Shown here piece by piece: positions 1,213-63,895 of a stretch of 64,000 nt of DNA. Every line of letters begins with the position of its first letter. Positions within the stretch are counted from its first letter, which is position 1. Both the position numbers and the translations under genes were made by a program. This DNA is from Streptomyces sp. HUAS ZL42 (lineage in GTDB: Bacteria; Actinomycetota; Actinomycetes; Streptomycetales; Streptomycetaceae): the NCBI RefSeq assembly GCF_040782645.1, contig NZ_CP160403.1, positions 496,001 to 560,000 of the forward strand, written 5' to 3'. The notes under the pieces were generated by a model. That model searched no databases, was not told the origin of the DNA, and was given only the letters and a program-made list of their open reading frames with translations.

Positions 1213-2643
1213 TCATGGCACCACTTCGCTGATGTGGTTGACGCAGACGACCTTGGGCTGGGTCATCTCCTCGAAGGCGAAGCGCACGCCTTCGCGGCCC
1301 ATGCTGCCGTACTTGAACCCGCCGAACGGCATGGCGTCGAAGCGGTAGTCGGACGAGTCGTTGATCATCACTCCGCCGGCTTCCAGCAGCCGGGCCGCGT
1401 TCAGGGCGCGGTCCAGGCGGGAGGTGAAGATGCCCGCGTGGAGGCTGTAGTCGATGGCGTTGGCCTGCTCGATGGCGTCCTCGAAGGACGTGAAGGGCTG
1501 CAGCACGACGACCGGGGCGAACACCTCCTCCTGCCAGATCGAGCAGGTCGCAGGGACGTCTTCCAGGACGGTCGGCACGTACAGGGAGCCGGTGGCGTCG
1601 TTGCCGCACAGCAGTGCCGCGCCCTGGGCCACCGCCGTGTCGACCTTGGCGCGGGTGGCGGCCGCGGCCTCCTGGGTGATCATGGGGCCGACGTCGGTGC
1701 GCTCGTCGAGCGGGTCGCCGACGCGCAGCAGCTTGGTGCGGGCGACGAAGGCGTCGCGGAAGCGCTCGTAGACCTTGGCCGCGATGAGGATCCGCTGAGT
1801 GCCGATGCAGTTCTGGCCGGCGGCCCAGAACGCGCCGGAGACGCAGGAGGCCACGGCCTCGTCGAGGTCGGCGTCGTCCATGACGATGACCGGGGCGTTG
1901 CCGCCCAGGTCCATGGCGAGCTTCTTCAGGCCGGCGGTGCGGGAGATGGCCTCGCCGGTGGCGAATCCGCCGGTGAAGGACACCATGCGCACGTCGGGGG
2001 CGGTCACGATCGCGGCGCCGATGTCGGCATTGCCGTTGACGACGGTGACGATCTCCTCGGGCAGGCCGGCCTCGATGAGGGTGTCGACCAGCCGCAGCGC
2101 GGACAGCGGTGTCAGCGCCGACGGTTTGAGGATGACGGCGTTGCCCCCGGCGATGGCCGGGCCGAGCTTGTGGGCGACCAGGTTGAGGGGGTCGTTGAAC
2201 GGGGTGATGGCGGCGATGATGCCCAGCGGCTCGCGGGTGAACCAGCCCTGCCGTTTCTCCGAGCCCTCGTAGGAGTCGAAGGGGATGACCTCGCCGGCGT
2301 TGCGCCGTGCCTCGGCTCCGGACAGGGTCAGCGTGTTGACCGCGCGGGCGACTTCCTTGCGGGCCTGGACGATGGTCTTGCCGGCCTCGCTGACGATCAG
2401 CTGGGCGAAAGACTCGGCGCGCCGCTCGATCAGGCGGGCGGCGCGTTCCAGGACCGCGGCCCGGGAGGCGCGGGAGAGCGCGGCCGCGGTGCGGCGCCCG
2501 CACCTGGCCTGCTGCAGGATCGCGCCGGCGGCGCCCGCGTCGACGGTGGGCACCGAGGCGATGACCTCGCCGGTGTAGGGGTTGTGCACGGGCGCCATGT
2601 CGGTGCCGAGTTCGATGCCGGGGGGCACGGCGGTGTCAGACAC
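1213..2643 (-). CDS. NAD(P)-dependent aldehyde dehydrogenase
   Basis: A 476-residue aldehyde dehydrogenase. It has the catalytic cysteine (C279 in GQNC), the NAD-site segments [17 protein letters not shown] and [19 protein letters not shown] carrying the catalytic-base region, and the C-terminal [15 protein letters not shown]. The start is GTG at 2643, with an AGGAGA site upstream and homology from [10 protein letters not shown]. The start overlaps the end of the homoserine dehydrogenase gene by 8 bases, so the two are translationally coupled. The family oxidises aldehydes to acids. Beside a homoserine dehydrogenase, aspartate semialdehyde is a reasonable candidate substrate, but the sequence does not prove it. 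Succinate-semialdehyde or phosphonoacetaldehyde-type activity is equally possible. Confidence 0.85.
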
Positions 2644-3724
2644 GGTGGGTCTCCTGGAGAACGGCGCGGATGGGGGCTGTGTCGTCGTCCGCGTGGCGCT
2701 GGTGGATGGCGATGATGTCCGACAGCAGGGCGCAGGCGGTTTCGGTGCGGCCGGCGCCCGGCCCGGACACTGTGACGGTGCCGAGGAGGTCGGTGTGGAA
2801 GGCGACCGCGTTGAGGGGGCCGGAGATTCCGGCGAGCGGGTGCTGGGCGGGCAGGGCGAGCGGGGCGACGCGGGCATCGACGCTGCCGTCCTCGTGGCGG
2901 GTGGCGGAGCCGACCAGCTTCCAGCGCAGCCCCTTCGAGGCGGCGTCCCGCACCTCGCGGGGGGTGATCGCCGAGATGCCCTCTCGGACGACGTCCTCGC
3001 GGCGCAGGTCGGCGCCGAGAACCTCGTTGGCCAGGATCATGACCTTGAGCTGGACGTCGTGGCCCTCGATGTCGGCGGTGGGGTCGGCTTCGGCGTAGCC
3101 GAGGGCCTGGGCTTCGGTGATGGCCGCCGAAAGCTCGATGCCTTCTTCGAGGCGGCCCAGGATGTAGTTCGAGGTGCCGTTCATGATGCCCTGGACGCCG
3201 GTGATCTCCAGGCCGCCGAACATGCGCCGGGCGGTGCGCAGGATGGGGGTGCCGCTGAGGACCGCGCCCTCGAACTCGAAGCTGACACCGCGCTCGGCGG
3301 CCAGCCGCTTCAGTGCGCGGCCGGCGAGTGCGACCGGGCCCTTGTTGGTGGTGCACACGTGCTTGCCCGATTTCAGGGCCCAGCGCACATGGGAGAGGGC
3401 GGGCTCGCCGTCGGTGGGGTTGGTGAACGTCGCCTCCACGACGATGTCGGCCGGCACCTCGCGGATCACCCACTCGTTGCGCGGATCAGCGCTGCCTCCG
3501 GCAAGGCCCGCGAAGCTCAACTCCCCGGGCTCGGCGGCCAGCAGCGGCGCCAGATCAATGCCGTCGGTGTCCACCAGGGAACCGGCCCGCAGATCGGTGA
3601 TCGCCACCACCCGCAGGGCAAAGCCCAGCTCCTTGGCCAGGCGCTCCCCGCTCTGGGATATGAGTTCGGCGAGGGCGCGGTTGACGCCGCCGAATCCGAT
3701 GAGGGCGAGATCGTATCGGCCCAT
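2636..3724 (-). CDS. hom: Homoserine dehydrogenase without ACT domain
   Basis: A 362-residue homoserine dehydrogenase, interconverting L-aspartate 4-semialdehyde and L-homoserine with NAD(P). The N-terminal Rossmann motif is [11 protein letters not shown], then [10 protein letters not shown], the catalytic-domain NGTSNYIL, and the family signature around [15 protein letters not shown]. Canonical biosynthetic enzymes in actinobacteria carry a C-terminal ACT feedback domain. This one stops before it, which suggests it is not threonine-inhibited and may serve catabolism. ATG at 3724 has an AAGGAG site 6 bases upstream. It is the first gene of a two-gene operon with an aldehyde dehydrogenase, and an Lrp regulator converges on them. 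A housekeeping hom elsewhere would be expected. Confidence 0.85.
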
Positions 3725-4470
3725 GAGTTCGCTCCTTCGCAGTCCGCCGCCTTCACGGTGCGGCTGCTGAAGAGCCTCGCTTCTCCGCCTGTCACCTGGT
3801 CCATGTCACAACGGCCACGGCCCATGCCGATCTGCTGTGTCCCAGGGCGATTCGCCCACCCCACCTCCGGCAACACCGTGCTGGAGGGGCCGGACGGCAG
3901 CACATACATCCAATGTCTGCGCTGTCGTGCCGAAGGGGAGAGATTCGCGTCAACTACCCGTCACTGGCGGTGATGCTGCGTCTGCGTCCAGCCCTGCTCC
4001 CGTGGTGGACTCGCCCTTGCAGTACAGGGCCAGGGTGGCCCAATGCTCCGGCGCGGCGGTGAACGCCACGTTCTTGGTCCGCCAGGACACCGTCCAGATG
4101 GACAGCTGCCGCCGGTCGGTCTGCCTGGACAGCATCCGGTCGTTGGAAGTTGCCGCCCGGAACGTCGAGGCAGTCCTGCACGGTCTCCCCGCGCCCACGC
4201 CACTCCCGAACACCCCGAGCCTGCCCGGCCGACACGCCACACTTCCGAACCAGATCGCGCACCTCACAGCCGCTCAGCCGGATTCACTCACACGTACTCG
4301 CCAACCCTTCGAAGGCTGCAGGCAGAGAGTTCAGCCACGCCCTCGGCCGGCCCTCCTGCGATCAGGCCGGTCTCGGCGTCACAAATCCCGCACGCGCGGC
4401 CCGCGGGGCGCCTCCGGCCTCGCCCCTGGCACACTGTCGCCCTCGACACATCGACGCGGAAACGGGACAG
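3725..4470. other. Intergenic region with an unrecognised coding-like fragment
   Basis: About 750 bases between divergent hom and the sigma-factor gene. On the minus strand, about 4130 down to 3950, a reading with strong GC at third positions gives QLSIWTVSWRTKNVAFTAAP and EHWATLALYCKG before a stop. Its upstream part falls into another frame (TVQDCLDVPGGNF). This looks like the remnant of a gene I do not recognise. The promoters of hom and of the sigma-factor gene must lie here. I see no clear terminator, riboswitch or RNA gene. Confidence 0.4.
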
Positions 4471-6051
4471 GTGGAGCGAGTGCGCTCGCAGGACGTGCAG
4501 GAACGGCCGGACGCCGACGTCGTCCTGGCGGCGAGGGACGGGGACCGGCATGCCTCGGAACAGCTGATACGGGACTGTCTGCCGCTCGTCTACAACATCG
4601 TCGGACGGGCGCTGGACGGCCACAACGACGTCGACGACGTGGTCCAGGAGACCATGATGCGGGTTCTGGACGGGTTGCCCGGGCTGGAGCAACCGGACCG
4701 GTTCCGCTCCTGGCTGGTCGCCATCGCCGTACGTCAGGTCCGCGACCGGTGGCGCAGCCAACAGAACCGGCCGACCGCGACACCACTGGAGGAAACCGCC
4801 CATGAGGCGGATCCGCAGGCCGACTTCGCCGATCTGGCGATTCTGCGGCTGGCGCTGTCGGGCCAGCGGCGCGAAGCGGTGGAGGCGACCCGCTGGCTGG
4901 AGGACGAGGAACGCGAGGTGCTCGCACTGTGGTGGATGGAGGCCGCCGGTGAACTGAACCGCAGCGACCTGGCGGCGGCGTGCGGTCTCACACCCCAGCA
5001 TGCCGCGGTGCGCGTCCAACGGGTCAAGGAACGGCTGGAGACCGCGCGCGCCGTGGTAAGAGCCGTAACCAGCTCGCCGCGCTGCACGGACCTGGCCGCC
5101 GTACTCACCTCATGGGACGGGCGGCCTGCGGCGCTGTGGCGCAAGCGGCTGGCACGCCATGTCCGGGAGTGCCCACAGTGCCTGTCCAGCGCGTCCGACC
5201 TGATACCGGCGGAGGGTCTGCTGGGCGGACTCGCGCTGGTGCCCGTGCCGATCGGTCTGGCCGGCCTGGTGCTGGACCGGGCACTGGCGGCGAACTCGGC
5301 CGGGGCGACCGTGGGCACGGACGGGCATGCGGCGAAGGGTGCAGGTCGGATGGCCCGTACGCTCGGCGGGCCGGCCATCAAGCCCCTGGCGGCGGCAACC
5401 GCATGCGCGGTGACCCTCACAGCTGCCGGAGTGGCATGGTACGCCGCCACGCGGTCCCACGAGCCAGCCCCGCGGCCCGTCGCCGCGGCCCCGCTGACGC
5501 CCGCCGCCTCGTCCGTCTCACCGCCCCCGGGAGCGTCCGCCTCACCGACCCCAACACGGACGCCGACAACGACGGCGACCCCGACAACGACGGCCACGGC
5601 GCGGCTTTCCGGGCAGCACGCCCTACGGTCGGTAGACGACCCCGGCCACTACGTGAGCCAGTCCGGCCGACTCGGCATCCTGAAGACGGTCGGCGCCACC
5701 AGCTCCACGGCCACCCGGAAGGCCGCCACCTTCACGTTCGTGCCCGGCCTCGCCGACGCCCGCTGCTACTCGCTCCGGGACACGTCGGGCAGGTATCTGC
5801 GGCACTACACCTTCCGCCTCCGCCTGGACACCAACGACGGATCCGCCCTCTTCCAGAAGGACGCCACCTTCTGCGCGCGCTCCGGCTCCGCCGACGGGTC
5901 GGTCTCCCTGGAGTCGTTCAACTACCCCGGCCGCTACCTCCGCCACCGGGACAACCTCCAGCTGTGGCTCGACCCTTCCGAGAACACCGCCTCGTACCGA
6001 GCCAGCTGCTCCTTCGTCATCGCCGCACCCTGGAGCACCGATGGGTCATGA
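4471..6051 (+). CDS. ECF sigma factor fused to zinc-finger, membrane helix and extracellular AbfB domain
   Basis: A 526-residue single chain. Sigma-2 region about residues 15-97 (DVDDVVQETMMRVLDGLPG, FRSWLVAIAVRQVRDRW); sigma-4 region about 124-197 (EEREVLALWW, LTPQHAAVRVQRVKERL). Next is an anti-sigma-like zinc motif H230-x3-C234-x2-C237, a hydrophobic helix about 304-325 (LAAATACAVTLTAAGVAWYA), a Pro/Thr/Ser-rich linker, then an AbfB-type beta-trefoil domain about 376-522 with its repeated GHYV, GRYLRHYTF, GRYLRHRDNLQLWLD motifs. AbfB (CBM42-like) binds arabinose side chains. The layout implies a membrane-tethered sigma factor with an outside sugar sensor, released by an unknown step. GTG at 4471 or 4480 is possible; neither has a strong ribosome site. 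A GH95 remnant follows. Domain calls are secure, mechanism is inference. Confidence 0.85.
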   Translation: MERVRSQDVQERPDADVVLAARDGDRHASEQLIRDCLPLVYNIVGRALDGHNDVDDVVQETMMRVLDGLPGLEQPDRFRSWLVAIAVRQVRDRWRSQQNRPTATPLEETAHEADPQADFADLAILRLALSGQRREAVEATRWLEDEEREVLALWWMEAAGELNRSDLAAACGLTPQHAAVRVQRVKERLETARAVVRAVTSSPRCTDLAAVLTSWDGRPAALWRKRLARHVRECPQCLSSASDLIPAEGLLGGLALVPVPIGLAGLVLDRALAANSAGATVGTDGHAAKGAGRMARTLGGPAIKPLAAATACAVTLTAAGVAWYAATRSHEPAPRPVAAAPLTPAASSVSPPPGASASPTPTRTPTTTATPTTTATARLSGQHALRSVDDPGHYVSQSGRLGILKTVGATSSTATRKAATFTFVPGLADARCYSLRDTSGRYLRHYTFRLRLDTNDGSALFQKDATFCARSGSADGSVSLESFNYPGRYLRHRDNLQLWLDPSENTASYRASCSFVIAAPWSTDGS

Positions 6052-6075
6052 ACCCCGAGCCACTCCACGCCGGCT

Positions 6076-6880
6076 CACCTGATCGTCACTGCCGGGCGAG
6101 ACCACTGGTACTCCGAACCGCTGCACGCCCAACTCGCCACGCTCGGCACCGATTACGTCGCACTGCGCTCGCGGCACACCGCCCTGCACACCGACTTCTA
6201 CGACCGCTCACACCTCGCCCCTGAACGTCCCGGCCGCCGACCGGCAGCTCTCGGTCAGCGAATTGATCACCCGTCAGAGCGCCGACCGCAGTGTCATCGA
6301 CACCATGCTGCTGGAACGGCTCTACGACGCCGGCCGATACTTCCTCATCAGCTCCAGCGGCGTCCTGCCGCCCCGGCTCACCGGCATCTGGACGGGCGCC
6401 TGGAACGGTGCCTGGGCCGACGACTTCACCACCGACGCCAACGTCAACCTCCAGGTCGCGGGCGGCAACATCCTCGACACCACCGACGTCATGGAGGGCT
6501 ACTTCAACCTGATCCTGGACCAGCTCGACGACTGGCGCACCAACGCCACCAACCTCAACGGCGCCCGCGGCATCCTCGTCCCGCACCGACGGACGAGGTC
6601 ACCGGCGACCAGGCCTTCCTGCGCGACAGGCTCGGTCCCGCCCTGATGGAACAGGCCCTGTTCTACGAGGACTTCCTCACCCGCACGGACACGAGCGGCA
6701 AGGCGGTCTTCCTGCCGTCCTTCTCCATGGAGAACTCACCCGGCAACACCGGCGTCTACTTCTCGATCAACGCCACCGGCGACATCATGGCCGGCAAGCA
6801 CGCCCTGCAGGCCGCGATCGACGCAGCCAACGTCCTCGGTGTCGAACAGGGCAGCGGCCAGGGCGTCGCATCGGCGTCAC
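6076..6880 (+). pseudogene. Remnant of GH95-like alpha-L-fucosidase-type glycosidase
   Basis: Pieces of one glycosidase lie in order but in different frames: DHWYSEPLHAQLATLGTDYV, then LNVPAADRQLSVSELITRQS, LLERLYDAGRYFLISSSG, PPRLTGIWTGAWNGAWADD and NVNLQVAGGNILDTTDVMEG. After RGILVPHR the sequence jumps over a missing segment into VTGDQAFLRDRLGPALMEQA, LFYEDFLTRTD and SMENSPGNTGVYFSINATGD. Both ends are missing, with at least one frameshift and one internal deletion. GH95 enzymes remove fucose or related sugars from plant glycans. At about 6880 the fragment abuts the truncated 3' end of an opposing SDR gene. Confidence 0.75.
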
Positions 6881-7345
6881 GGCCAGGCCCGGCGCCACCA
6901 CGTTGACGCGGAGGTTGCGGGACGCCCACTCGACGGCAGCGCCGCGCGCGAGCGCGATGAGGCCGCCCTTGGCGGCTGAGTACAGGGTCTGGTTCGGCAT
7001 GCCGACCATGCCGAGGCGCGAGCTCACGCACACCATCGACGCTCCCTGCTCGGGAGCCAGCGGCATCAGGTGCTTCATGACCAGGAACGAGCTCAGCAGG
7101 TTGCTGTGCAGCACGTCGCGTGCGTCGTCGTCGGTCATGTCCGTGAGCGGGCCGGACGCTGGAGCCCATGGCAGAGGACGACCACTCCGACGTCGCTCAG
7201 GTGGTGCCGCCCGGGCGCCGAGCTCGGCGACGAAGTTCTCGTCGTTCAGGTCCCCCGCGAGGTAGAGATCGTCCGGATGGTATTCGGGCAGCTCAGGCCG
7301 CCGTCCGGTGAGCAGGAGGTTGGCGCCCTCCGTACCCTCGGGGCC
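6880..7345 (-). pseudogene. Remnant of short-chain dehydrogenase/reductase
   Basis: Minus-strand pieces of an SDR oxidoreductase: LLLTGRRPELPEYH and LAGDLNDENFVAELGA in one frame, then after a frameshift VVLCHGL, DVLHSNLLSSFLVMKHLMPL, VCVSSRLGMVGM and the catalytic motif NQTLYSAAKGGLIALARGAA with VNVVAPGLAVTPM. The nucleotide-binding N-terminus is missing at the aspartase side, and the C-terminus is cut where it meets the GH95 remnant. The catalytic Tyr and Lys codons survive, but no complete product can be made. Confidence 0.7.
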
Positions 7346-7348
7346 CCG

Positions 7349-8758
7349 TCACGCCAGTACCTGGCCGCTGCCCGCGACGACCTCGGGCCGCAGCAGGTCA
7401 GCGAGGGTATCGGCGGGCAACAGGCCCTTCTCCAGGACGAGTTCGGCCACCCCCCGGCCGGTGACGAGGGCCTCCTTGGCGATGTCGGTGGCGGCCGTGT
7501 AGCCGATGTGCGGGTTGAGGGCGGTGACCAGGCCGATGGAGTTCTCCACGGTCCTGCGCAGCGCCCCGGTGTTGGCGGTGATGCCGCTCACGCAGCGCTC
7601 GGCGAGGGTCAGGCACGCCGCCCGGAGATGCGTGATGCTCTCCGACAGGGAGTGCAGGATGATCGGCTCGAAGGCGTTGAGCTGGAGCTGCCCGGCCTCG
7701 GCGGCCATGGTGATGGTGACGTCGTTGCCGATCACCTCGAAGGCGACCTGGTTGACGACCTCGGGGATCACCGGGTTGACCTTGCCCGGCATGATGCTCG
7801 AACCGGCCTGCACCGGCGGCAGGTTGATCTCACCAAGACCCGCACGCGGCCCCGACGACAGCAGGCGCAGATCGTTGCAGCTCTTGGACAGCTTCACGGC
7901 AATCCGCTTGAGCACACCCGACACTTGCACGAACGCGCCGCAGTCCTGGGTCGCCTCGACCAGGTTGGCGGCGGTCACCAGCGGAAGTCCGGTGATCCCG
8001 GCGAGGTGGCGGCGGGCCGACTCGGCGTATCCGGCGGGGGCGTTGAGGCCGGTGCCGATCGCCGTGGCACCCAGGTTGATCTCATGGATCAGCTCGACGG
8101 CCTCGGCAAGACGGGACCGGTCCTCGTCGATCATGACGGCGTACGAGGAGAACTCCTGACCCAGCGTCATCGGCACGGCGTCCTGCAACTGCGTGCGGCC
8201 CATCTTGAGCACACTGCGGAACTCGACGGCCTTGCGGGCGAAGGAGTCCTGCAGGACGGACATCGCCTTGAGCAGTCCCCGTACCGCGAACACCGTCGCG
8301 ATCTTGACGGCGGTCGGGTACACGTCGTTGGTGGACTGGGAGAGGTTGACGTCCTCGTTGGGGTGCAGGAACCGGTACTCGCCCCTGTCGTGGCCCAGCA
8401 ACTCCAACGCCCGGTTGGCGACGACCTCGTTGGCGTTCATGTTGGTCGAGGTGCCGGCACCTCCCTGGATCACGTCGACGACGAACTGCTCGTGCAGCTT
8501 GCCGGAGCGGATCTCCCGGCACGCGGCGACGATCGCGGCCGCCTTCTCCGGCTCCAGCAGACCGAGTTCCTCGTTCGCGAGGGCGGCGGCCTCCTTCACG
8601 GCCGCAAGGGCGTCGACCAGATGCGGGTAGGCGGAGATCGGGGTGCCCGTGATCGGGAAGTTCTCCGTGGCACGCAGGGTGTGAACACCCCAGTACGCCT
8701 CGGCGGGAACATCCCGGGCGCCGAGAAGATCGTGCTCACTGCGGGTGACGGCGGTCAT
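7349..8758 (-). CDS. aspA: Aspartate ammonia-lyase (aspartase)
   Basis: A 469-residue member of the aspartase/fumarase superfamily converting L-aspartate to fumarate and ammonia. The superfamily signature [11 protein letters not shown] lies near residues 318-328. Other marks are [38 protein letters not shown] and [17 protein letters not shown], where the QDAVP wording favours aspartase over class II fumarase. ATG at 8758 has an AGAAGG site about 9 bases upstream. A strong hairpin separates it from the flavin oxidase gene above, so it may have its own promoter. Downstream lies a broken SDR. If the neighbouring operon yields aspartate, this enzyme would feed it into the TCA cycle (inference). 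Confidence 0.92.
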
Positions 8759-52300: not shown

Positions 52301-52628
52301 ATGGGATGTTTATAGAGGTGCTCCCGGCTCGCCGTCCAGCCTTTGGGACCCCTGGGTCCATCCCATCGATCCTCGCCGCTCGATGACTCGACCACACCAC
52401 GAGATTGCGTCAGACATGCCACGTTTGACGGAGCGCAATGCGCATCAAACAGCAAGCAAACTGGGCAAATTGGCTAGCGGTACACCGCTTTTCATCCCTG
52501 CACACCGGTTGACATCCCGGGGAGACATGACGGACCTTCATGCGTAACAAACGGCTCCCCCTGCGCAGCAACCACGCTGACGCGTCCCACTGCGTTCCCC
52601 GACCGCCTTCTGAACCTGGGATGTCTTC

Positions 52629-61298: not shown

Positions 61299-63895
<2,597 letters not shown>

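Follow-up and report, generated by a model that had tools for sequence, protein, structure and literature searches.

A single-chain, predicted transmembrane ECF sigma factor with a putative AbfB outer domain in Streptomyces, and a candidate promoter signature linking its family to arabinofuranose-polymer enzymes

The gene at positions 4471..6051 (+) of a 64,000-nucleotide stretch from Streptomyces sp. HUAS ZL42 (the window; 496–560 kb of a host genome consisting of one 9.87 Mb contig) encodes a fused, predicted transmembrane protein in which an ECF sigma factor and an AbfB sensor domain share one chain. The question is which signal such a protein would perceive, which genes it would switch on, and whether the copy in the window still has genes to control. 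The reading that we consider likely is that of a substrate-sensing, membrane-held sigma switch for enzymes acting on arabinofuranose polymers, with the anti-sigma part placed in the C-terminal extension of the sigma factor itself.

The gene forms a single frame running from GTG 4471 to 6051, with a second in-frame GTG at 4480 as alternative start, and codes for 526 residues with no inner stops. Sigma regions 2 to 4 (4552..5043 (+), residues 28–191) are matched by the NCBIfam model sigma70-ECF, TIGR02937, with 65.6 bits against a cut-off of 42.9 and with region 4 included, and Sigma70_r2 of Pfam covers residues 32–99 with 54.8 bits against a cut-off of 24. Regions 2 and 4 are the only sigma regions present, by which ECF sigma factors are defined. 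The C terminus consists of an AbfB (CBM42-type) domain (5623..6021 (+), residues 385–517) that is recognised by PF05270 with 149.1 bits (cut-off 22.8, E 1.1e-43) and has sequence matches in the PDB to 1wd3/2d43 and to RsgI5, 9fnk; no other Pfam model matched the C-terminal part at E 10. That an ECF sigma factor and AbfB lie on one chain had been proposed in an earlier note made from the sequence alone, and the intact frame with these two profile matches confirms it. A chimera or a frameshift as origin is ruled out because the chain is conserved in many genomes: it occurs at 65–82% identity in named Streptomyces genomes (three of them matching over part of the chain), and among the matches listed Sigma70_r2 and AbfB are both present in 108 of 120 homologues.

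The sigma part is followed by a zinc anti-sigma–like module in cis (5083..5181 (+)) with the ligands C205, H230, C234, and C237, which are invariant across the 11 aligned relatives. Class I zinc anti-sigma (ZAS) domains carry the ligand pattern H/C-x(20-30)-H-x3-C-x2-C; this pattern is found in the window protein, although the zf-HC2 profile itself gave no match. The anti-sigma–like H-x3-C-x2-C noticed earlier thus stands, at residues 230–237, and the set C-x(20-30)-H-x3-C-x2-C recurs in all but two of 133 family proteins (131). A piece of L039 and L176 are the exceptions; both frames lack their N-terminal part and so escaped the fixed search stretch, and L176 shows the H-x3-C-x2-C. Of the profile searches that had been suggested, those with Sigma70_r2 and AbfB succeeded, whereas the Pfam models of region 4 and zf-HC2 found no match on the window protein at E 10.

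Instead of the one membrane helix that had been claimed, hydropathy yields two hydrophobic segments, either or both of which may cross the membrane. The stronger one (5215..5274 (+), residues 249–268, mean 2.24) is a conserved stretch in the PAExLLxGLALVPVP region and may be either a second membrane segment or the last helix of the anti-sigma domain. The weaker one (5377..5442 (+), residues 303–324, mean 1.45–1.48) is the predicted membrane helix. A single pass would place AbfB outside the cell; if both stretches spanned the membrane, the AbfB end would lie inside. The adjoining Pro/Ser/Thr-rich linker (5443..5613 (+)) probably spans the cell wall.

Within the AbfB domain, the His/Asp pairs of the second and third repeats, which from work on the Aspergillus kawachii enzyme we take to be the residues that hold arabinofuranose, are only partly retained. 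The second-repeat pair of the window protein (H445, D464) is kept, as in every one of the 32 sigma AbfB domains (out of 35) that were aligned. The third-repeat Asp is replaced by S512 and is missing in 31 of the 32, which may weaken or alter the binding of sugar; all three LamG-GH43-AbfB domains of the same alignment retain it. The sensor domain may accordingly offer one sugar site versus two in the enzyme. In a tree of AbfB domains, both sigma AbfB types group together, with a weak support of 0.71, and separate from those that the neighbouring GH43-like genes encode; hence, an origin of the sensor from such a neighbour is not supported by the tree.

The window protein belongs to a large family. 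A homologue search with its N-terminal 335 residues returned at least 4203 proteins at E 1e-10 among 7993 scored candidates, and an alignment of the module (n=11) as query found matches in 118 of the 159 genomes searched within the genus (E 1e-60) and in at least 24 of 296 genomes of the class (E 1e-40). For comparison of the loci, 32 (L009–L040) of a first sample of 46 were used, the 14 distant ECF matches L041–L054 being dropped, and 100 further loci were hand-picked from the match lists, in which L003-type matches were numerous and alike and were therefore taken in part. The 135 loci yielded 136 fusion frames, and Pfam was run on representatives; L093, a duplicate of L019, is left out where stated, and L026 (truncated) and one piece of L039 were not classed. 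The 134 classed frames carry a CAP/SCP domain (PF00188; 79 frames), AbfB (35, one a duplicate), a C terminus without assigned family, here called the L003 type (9), a GH catalytic core, PF11790 (4), a β-helix (3), or a Pel9A-like β-helix (1), the remaining 3 being truncated or frameshifted singles. CAP/SCP is the commonest outer domain in this sample (L163:9281-11266 and 78 other loci). For the L003 type (L003/L058:8346-10073 (-), L094, L099, L106), one representative was searched and had no C-terminal Pfam match. In a FastTree of the sigma/zinc module, AbfB1 (0.96), AbfB2 (1.00), CAP (0.66), and β-helix proteins (1.0) each form a single clade, and the L003-type and GH members do not. We read this as outer domains having been exchanged while the sigma/zinc module stayed constant. 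A widespread family with a common module and different outer domains (CAP, AbfB, GH, β-helix, unassigned), as delineated by these alignments and profiles, is new.

In three sensor types the outer domain, as judged from the fetched flanks (tblastn, E 1e-20, up to 8–10 kb, shorter at contig ends), predicts the neighbouring enzyme: AbfB1, AbfB2, and β-helix. A GH43-like AbfB gene lies at 15 of 25 AbfB1 loci versus 0 of 108 other fusion loci (Fisher 1.3e-13), and is absent from the fetched flanks of the other 10. The GH10-GH62 query matches at 10 of 11 AbfB2 loci versus 3 of 122 others (Fisher 9e-12), two of these three matches covering the GH62 half only, and a PL1 (pectate lyase) query matches at all 3 β-helix loci versus 1 of 130 others (Fisher 1e-5). 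Since related loci are not independent, these p values overstate the association. Counted with the AbfB profile, non-sigma AbfB genes occur at 14 of 35 AbfB loci and at none of the 79 CAP, 9 L003-type, 4 GH, 3 β-helix, and 2 other loci; the truncated L012 locus also has one, and the match in the frameshifted L136 is the fusion's own AbfB part. The family of the main target rests on a strong AbfB domain and a weak catalytic match, as the neighbour in L009 combines 158.9 bits for AbfB with 25.0 bits for GH43, and the L213 gene reaches 23.2 bits, both below the GH43 cut-off of 32.2. Other neighbours chosen for Pfam analysis are LamG+GH43+AbfB, ricin+GH62, GH97, ricin+GH43, GH10+GH62, ricin+pectate lyase, and ricin+pectinesterase proteins.

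A promoter signature common to the family, GTTATS-N16/17-GTCTCC, precedes many sigma genes of the non-AbfB types. Upstream alignments show it as TGTTATC-N16/17-GTCTCC before CAP- and L003-type sigma genes and, on the opposite strand, as CGTTATG-N16-GTCTCC between many type-1 (AbfB1) sigma genes and the divergently oriented gene. Its strict form lies 5' of the sigma gene on the same strand in 47 of 79 CAP, 6 of 9 L003-type, 1 of 4 GH, and 1 of 1 Pel9A-like loci, and in 0 of 3 β-helix, 0 of 25 AbfB1, and 0 of 10 AbfB2 loci. On the opposite strand it is found in 14 of 25 AbfB1 loci (L093 being the duplicate) versus 0 of 79 CAP loci; at two of these sites, in L025 and L032, the gene there is not GH43-like. 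Reversed-sequence controls gave 0 matches. A matrix trained on strict matches from the same loci, the GH10 and pectin sites not being part of the training set, found 116 matches at threshold 17 in 2.47 Mb and 0 in the reversed sequence used as control. Apart from sigma genes, these matches precede GH43-like AbfB genes, alginate-lyase–like genes (as in L024 and L025), one GH10-GH62 gene, function-unassigned neighbours at CAP and GH loci, and one far-off gene of L138; the sites of L015 and L032 have no fitting gene behind them. Two of the 3 β-helix loci have a near-threshold site 5' of pectinesterase/pectate-lyase genes. At AbfB2 loci, the variant GTTAYG-N17-GCCTCC is conserved 5' of GH10 in 10 of 10 aligned loci.

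Several side observations were made along with these alignments. The site before GH10-GH62 at L057:10516 reads GTTATG-N17-GCCTCC, a form between both AbfB types, and nine other type-2 loci have GTTACG. In the CAP loci L114, L120, L126, L153, L177, and L179, a matrix match lies 5' of a neighbour that by eye resembles a single-pass membrane protein. Alginate-lyase–like proteins (PF05426) recur behind the family promoter (L203:7550-9019 (-), L024:9646-11301 (-), L025:6345-7808 (-)), one of them having an LAxTG-like tail as well as a Tat-signal match, and 2 of 9 L003-type loci follow such a gene bearing the promoter. The conserved block CTGGCACAC 5' of the type-1 sigma gene was rejected as a regulon motif, with one site only in this genome.

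The type-1 form was then followed through whole genomes. In 21 type-1 genomes (those of L012, L023, L026, and L039 being left out), GTTATG-N15/18-GTCTCC occurs 22 times, in 14 genomes, versus 3 times in the control. Eighteen of the 22 sites have a common spacer form, which none of the 40 sites in 157 other genomes of the genus has. The bare motif is near chance in the 159-genome background, with 42 sites versus 28 in the control; two type-1 genomes and that of the window are part of this set. Sixteen of the 18 spacer-form sites precede GH43-like genes (Pfam-checked for L213, L222, and L229): 12 directly a GH43-like AbfB-type gene, 2 such a gene behind a short remnant frame, and 2 another GH43 gene (L222, L229). 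The remaining two stand before an amidotransferase-like gene (L217) and at a contig end (L230). In the draft assemblies of L213, L221, L222, and L229, the target sites are on contigs other than that of the sigma gene. The AbfB2 variant occurs at 28 sites across 10 genomes, and 10 of the sites are the ones linked to the sigma gene; the other 18 equal the control count of 18 and are therefore at chance level, and a wide AbfB2 regulon was rejected.

How the window copy fits this pattern depends on its surroundings. The earlier note had placed the fusion next to glycosidase genes, and this does not hold for intact ones: the positions of GH29 (52629), GH43 (58698), and GH10-GH62 (61874), all assigned by Pfam, put them 46–58 kb away and rule out adjacency. 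What adjoins is a broken GH95 catalytic-domain piece outside the switch (6263..6643 (+); PF22124, 50.6 bits, model positions 46–148 of 408), followed on the other strand by a short SDR-like piece; together, window positions 6263-7138 suggest that the DNA next to the sigma gene has been rearranged. Upstream, on the opposite strand, lie homoserine-dehydrogenase–like and aldehyde-dehydrogenase–like genes, these and the SDR-like piece being named from their translations. In a blastn comparison of window positions 2500-8000 with related loci (E 1e-8), no flank matched except that of the same-genome locus, and the stretch at about 3980-4270, 5' of the sigma gene, received no assignment from it. The GH10-GH62 gene of the window (61874..63895 (+); Pfam, tblastn) is 73% identical (tblastn) to the one adjoining the second AbfB-type sigma gene of this genome (L057); scanning upstream of it found no family promoter, and it was discarded as a target.

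The same genome contains further fusions: a second AbfB protein (L002/L057, 43%), one with another C terminus (L003/L058), and a distant one (L055) that is 30% identical to the window protein and SCO4117-like by layout alone. Near 1886.5 kb lies a decayed second copy of the window gene (L059:6444-6756), in which a 56-base piece of the sigma part stands beside the AbfB tail with ~845 bases missing between them. Near 438 kb, L061:8204-9186 is a broken LamG-GH43-AbfB-like gene whose two pieces are 94% and 89% identical to the enzyme adjoining the type-1 sigma gene in L009. The strict family motif has three sites in this genome versus 0 in the control, 5' of the L003-type sigma gene, of a GH43 gene's divergent neighbour whose product looks secreted, and of a Tat-signal alginate-lyase–like gene. 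The type-1 form was not found in it. Within the 64-kb window, the signature does not exceed chance by pattern count or matrix scan, and a GTTACG site at 52521-52548 was rejected as a target (pattern 5 versus control 5; in the window 4 versus 5.1 expected). The window copy hence looks separated from its usual target, having neither a linked GH43 gene nor a recognisable type-1 promoter. Of the arabinan/arabinoxylan-sensing switch that had been proposed for this locus, the part that stands is carried by the relatives, with their GH43-like or GH10/GH62 neighbours and common promoter; the distance of the window's glycosidases, the chance-level signature in the window, and the lack of the family signature upstream of its GH10-GH62 gene speak against the local version.

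The proposed mechanism would operate as follows. Starting from the domain order and the zinc ligands, which are read directly from the gene, we infer that the sigma part would be cytoplasmic and blocked in cis by the zinc module, and that the membrane helix and the linker would carry the AbfB lectin outside. By its fold, AbfB would bind arabinofuranose side chains of arabinan or arabinoxylan. In analogy to the published IutY, SCO4117, and RsgI models, binding would set off proteolysis, or a change of shape, by which the sigma factor is freed. The sensor–enzyme linkage in relatives and the promoter signature with the genes behind it are likewise plain in the compared loci, and suggest that the freed sigma factor, presumably including that of the window, would start transcription at GTTATG-N16/17-GTCTCC before GH43-type arabinofuranosidase-like genes. 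The type-2 paralogue would play the same role for GH10/GH62 through GTTAYG-N17-GCCTCC.

Three other explanations bear on parts of this mechanism. AbfB might only anchor the cell to plant polymer or wall, with a different inducer, for example an envelope stress or a sugar that some other protein senses, and the link to enzymes would then reflect co-inheritance. The loss of the third-repeat Asp in nearly all sigma AbfB domains would fit such an anchor, as would SCO4117, a related fusion bearing a carbohydrate-binding domain, which is reported, in the part of PMC5826349 consulted, to control development and secondary-metabolism genes. However, the second-repeat pair is kept throughout, sensor type predicts enzyme type with AbfB1, AbfB2, and β-helix proteins as separate sigma-module clades, and the promoter signature also stands 5' of GH43-like genes on other contigs; we therefore regard mere anchoring as decidedly improbable. 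Release could also proceed without proteolysis, the ligand loosening the zinc module so that the whole protein acts as a sigma factor while still bound to the membrane. The accessible text of PMC5826349 proposes proteolysis as well as conformational change, and the present data do not distinguish the two; IutY, which the accessible part of PMC8999054 names as the sole fused ECF case to have been tested by that time, is freed through RIP, and a purely conformational release appears unlikely to us.

The last alternative concerns the window copy alone, which could be a relic, intact yet with no target left in this genome. This would be in keeping with the missing type-1 promoter, with flanks not common to related loci and adjoined by the broken GH95 and dehydrogenase-like pieces, and with the decayed second copy near 1886.5 kb. 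Against it stand the intact frame at 65–82% identity to relatives and the option that diverged sites may serve, for example GTTATG-N17-GCCTCC 5' of GH10-GH62 at 4490515 of the host genome, a pattern that overall occurs 5 times versus 5 in the control. A relic is doubtful on this balance, and the substrate-sensing switch remains the preferred reading.

On a broader scale, a general actinobacterial one-protein design, to which we give slightly better than even chances, would combine a constant membrane-held sigma/anti-sigma module with exchanged outer domains taken from, or folded like, the enzymes under control, the choice of targets lying in small promoter changes. Herein, AbfB members would sense arabinofuranose polymers and turn on GH43-like or GH10/GH62 genes, β-helix members would do so for pectin enzymes, and CAP and the others would respond to further cues. 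If this were true, one polypeptide could serve as an exchangeable polymer sensor in gene control, and substrates could be assigned to Streptomyces sigma paralogues from their outer domain. For testing, the analysis supplies the sensor types with the enzyme genes expected to be under their control, a precisely defined promoter signature, targets remote from the sigma gene, and negative controls to match.

Compared with known systems, the outline of the AbfB fusion is already published, and the regulon proposal is new and testable. Fused proteins with sigma, zinc, membrane, and carbohydrate-related parts are described as ECF52 (SCO4117) and ECF53 in the accessible parts of PMC5826349, PMC8999054, and PMC10766802, which agrees with the earlier note, according to which fused ECF types are reported in actinobacterial surveys; hence, the window fusion alone defines no new kind. 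For the AbfB fusion, its targets, and the signature GTTATS-N16/17-GTCTCC, no report was found in the portions of the open-licence literature searched. The ECF52 protein SCO4117 of Streptomyces coelicolor likewise combines an ECF sigma factor, a zinc finger, a membrane region, a Pro-rich linker, and a carbohydrate-binding domain on one chain, but its sensor is smart00776 and its reported motif CSGYN-17-SRHA (PMC5826349, as far as its text was available). The window protein shares the zinc finger, the Pro-rich region, and, by hydropathy only, the membrane helix; its C-terminal domain is AbfB, with no other Pfam match at E 10, instead of smart00776. Judged by the published descriptions, the family probably falls in ECF53, whose members have a C-terminal zinc finger and one to two membrane helices (PMC8999054) and in some cases GH or carbohydrate-binding domains (PMC10766802); the accessible parts of these two papers mention neither AbfB nor a promoter or target gene, and the organism of the cited ECF53 example was not found among the named entries of two sets of 120 listed homologues. 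IutY (ECF243) of Pseudomonas putida is also a sigma–anti-sigma fusion in a membrane protein, freed by RIP according to the accessible part of PMC8999054, but is Gram-negative and responds to an iron-siderophore signal through another sensor path. A likeness in the sensor is found in SigI5/RsgI5 of Clostridium thermocellum, in which an AbfB/CBM42 outer domain sits on a membrane anti-sigma factor (PDB 9fnk; PMC12203970 and PMC4711584, both in part), and the sensor domain varies among RsgI paralogues as it does in the window family. Therein, sigma and anti-sigma factor are two proteins, SigI is described as not being of the ECF type, and RsgI has an autocleaving periplasmic domain, whereas the window protein is a single chain that matches ECF models and carries a zinc module.
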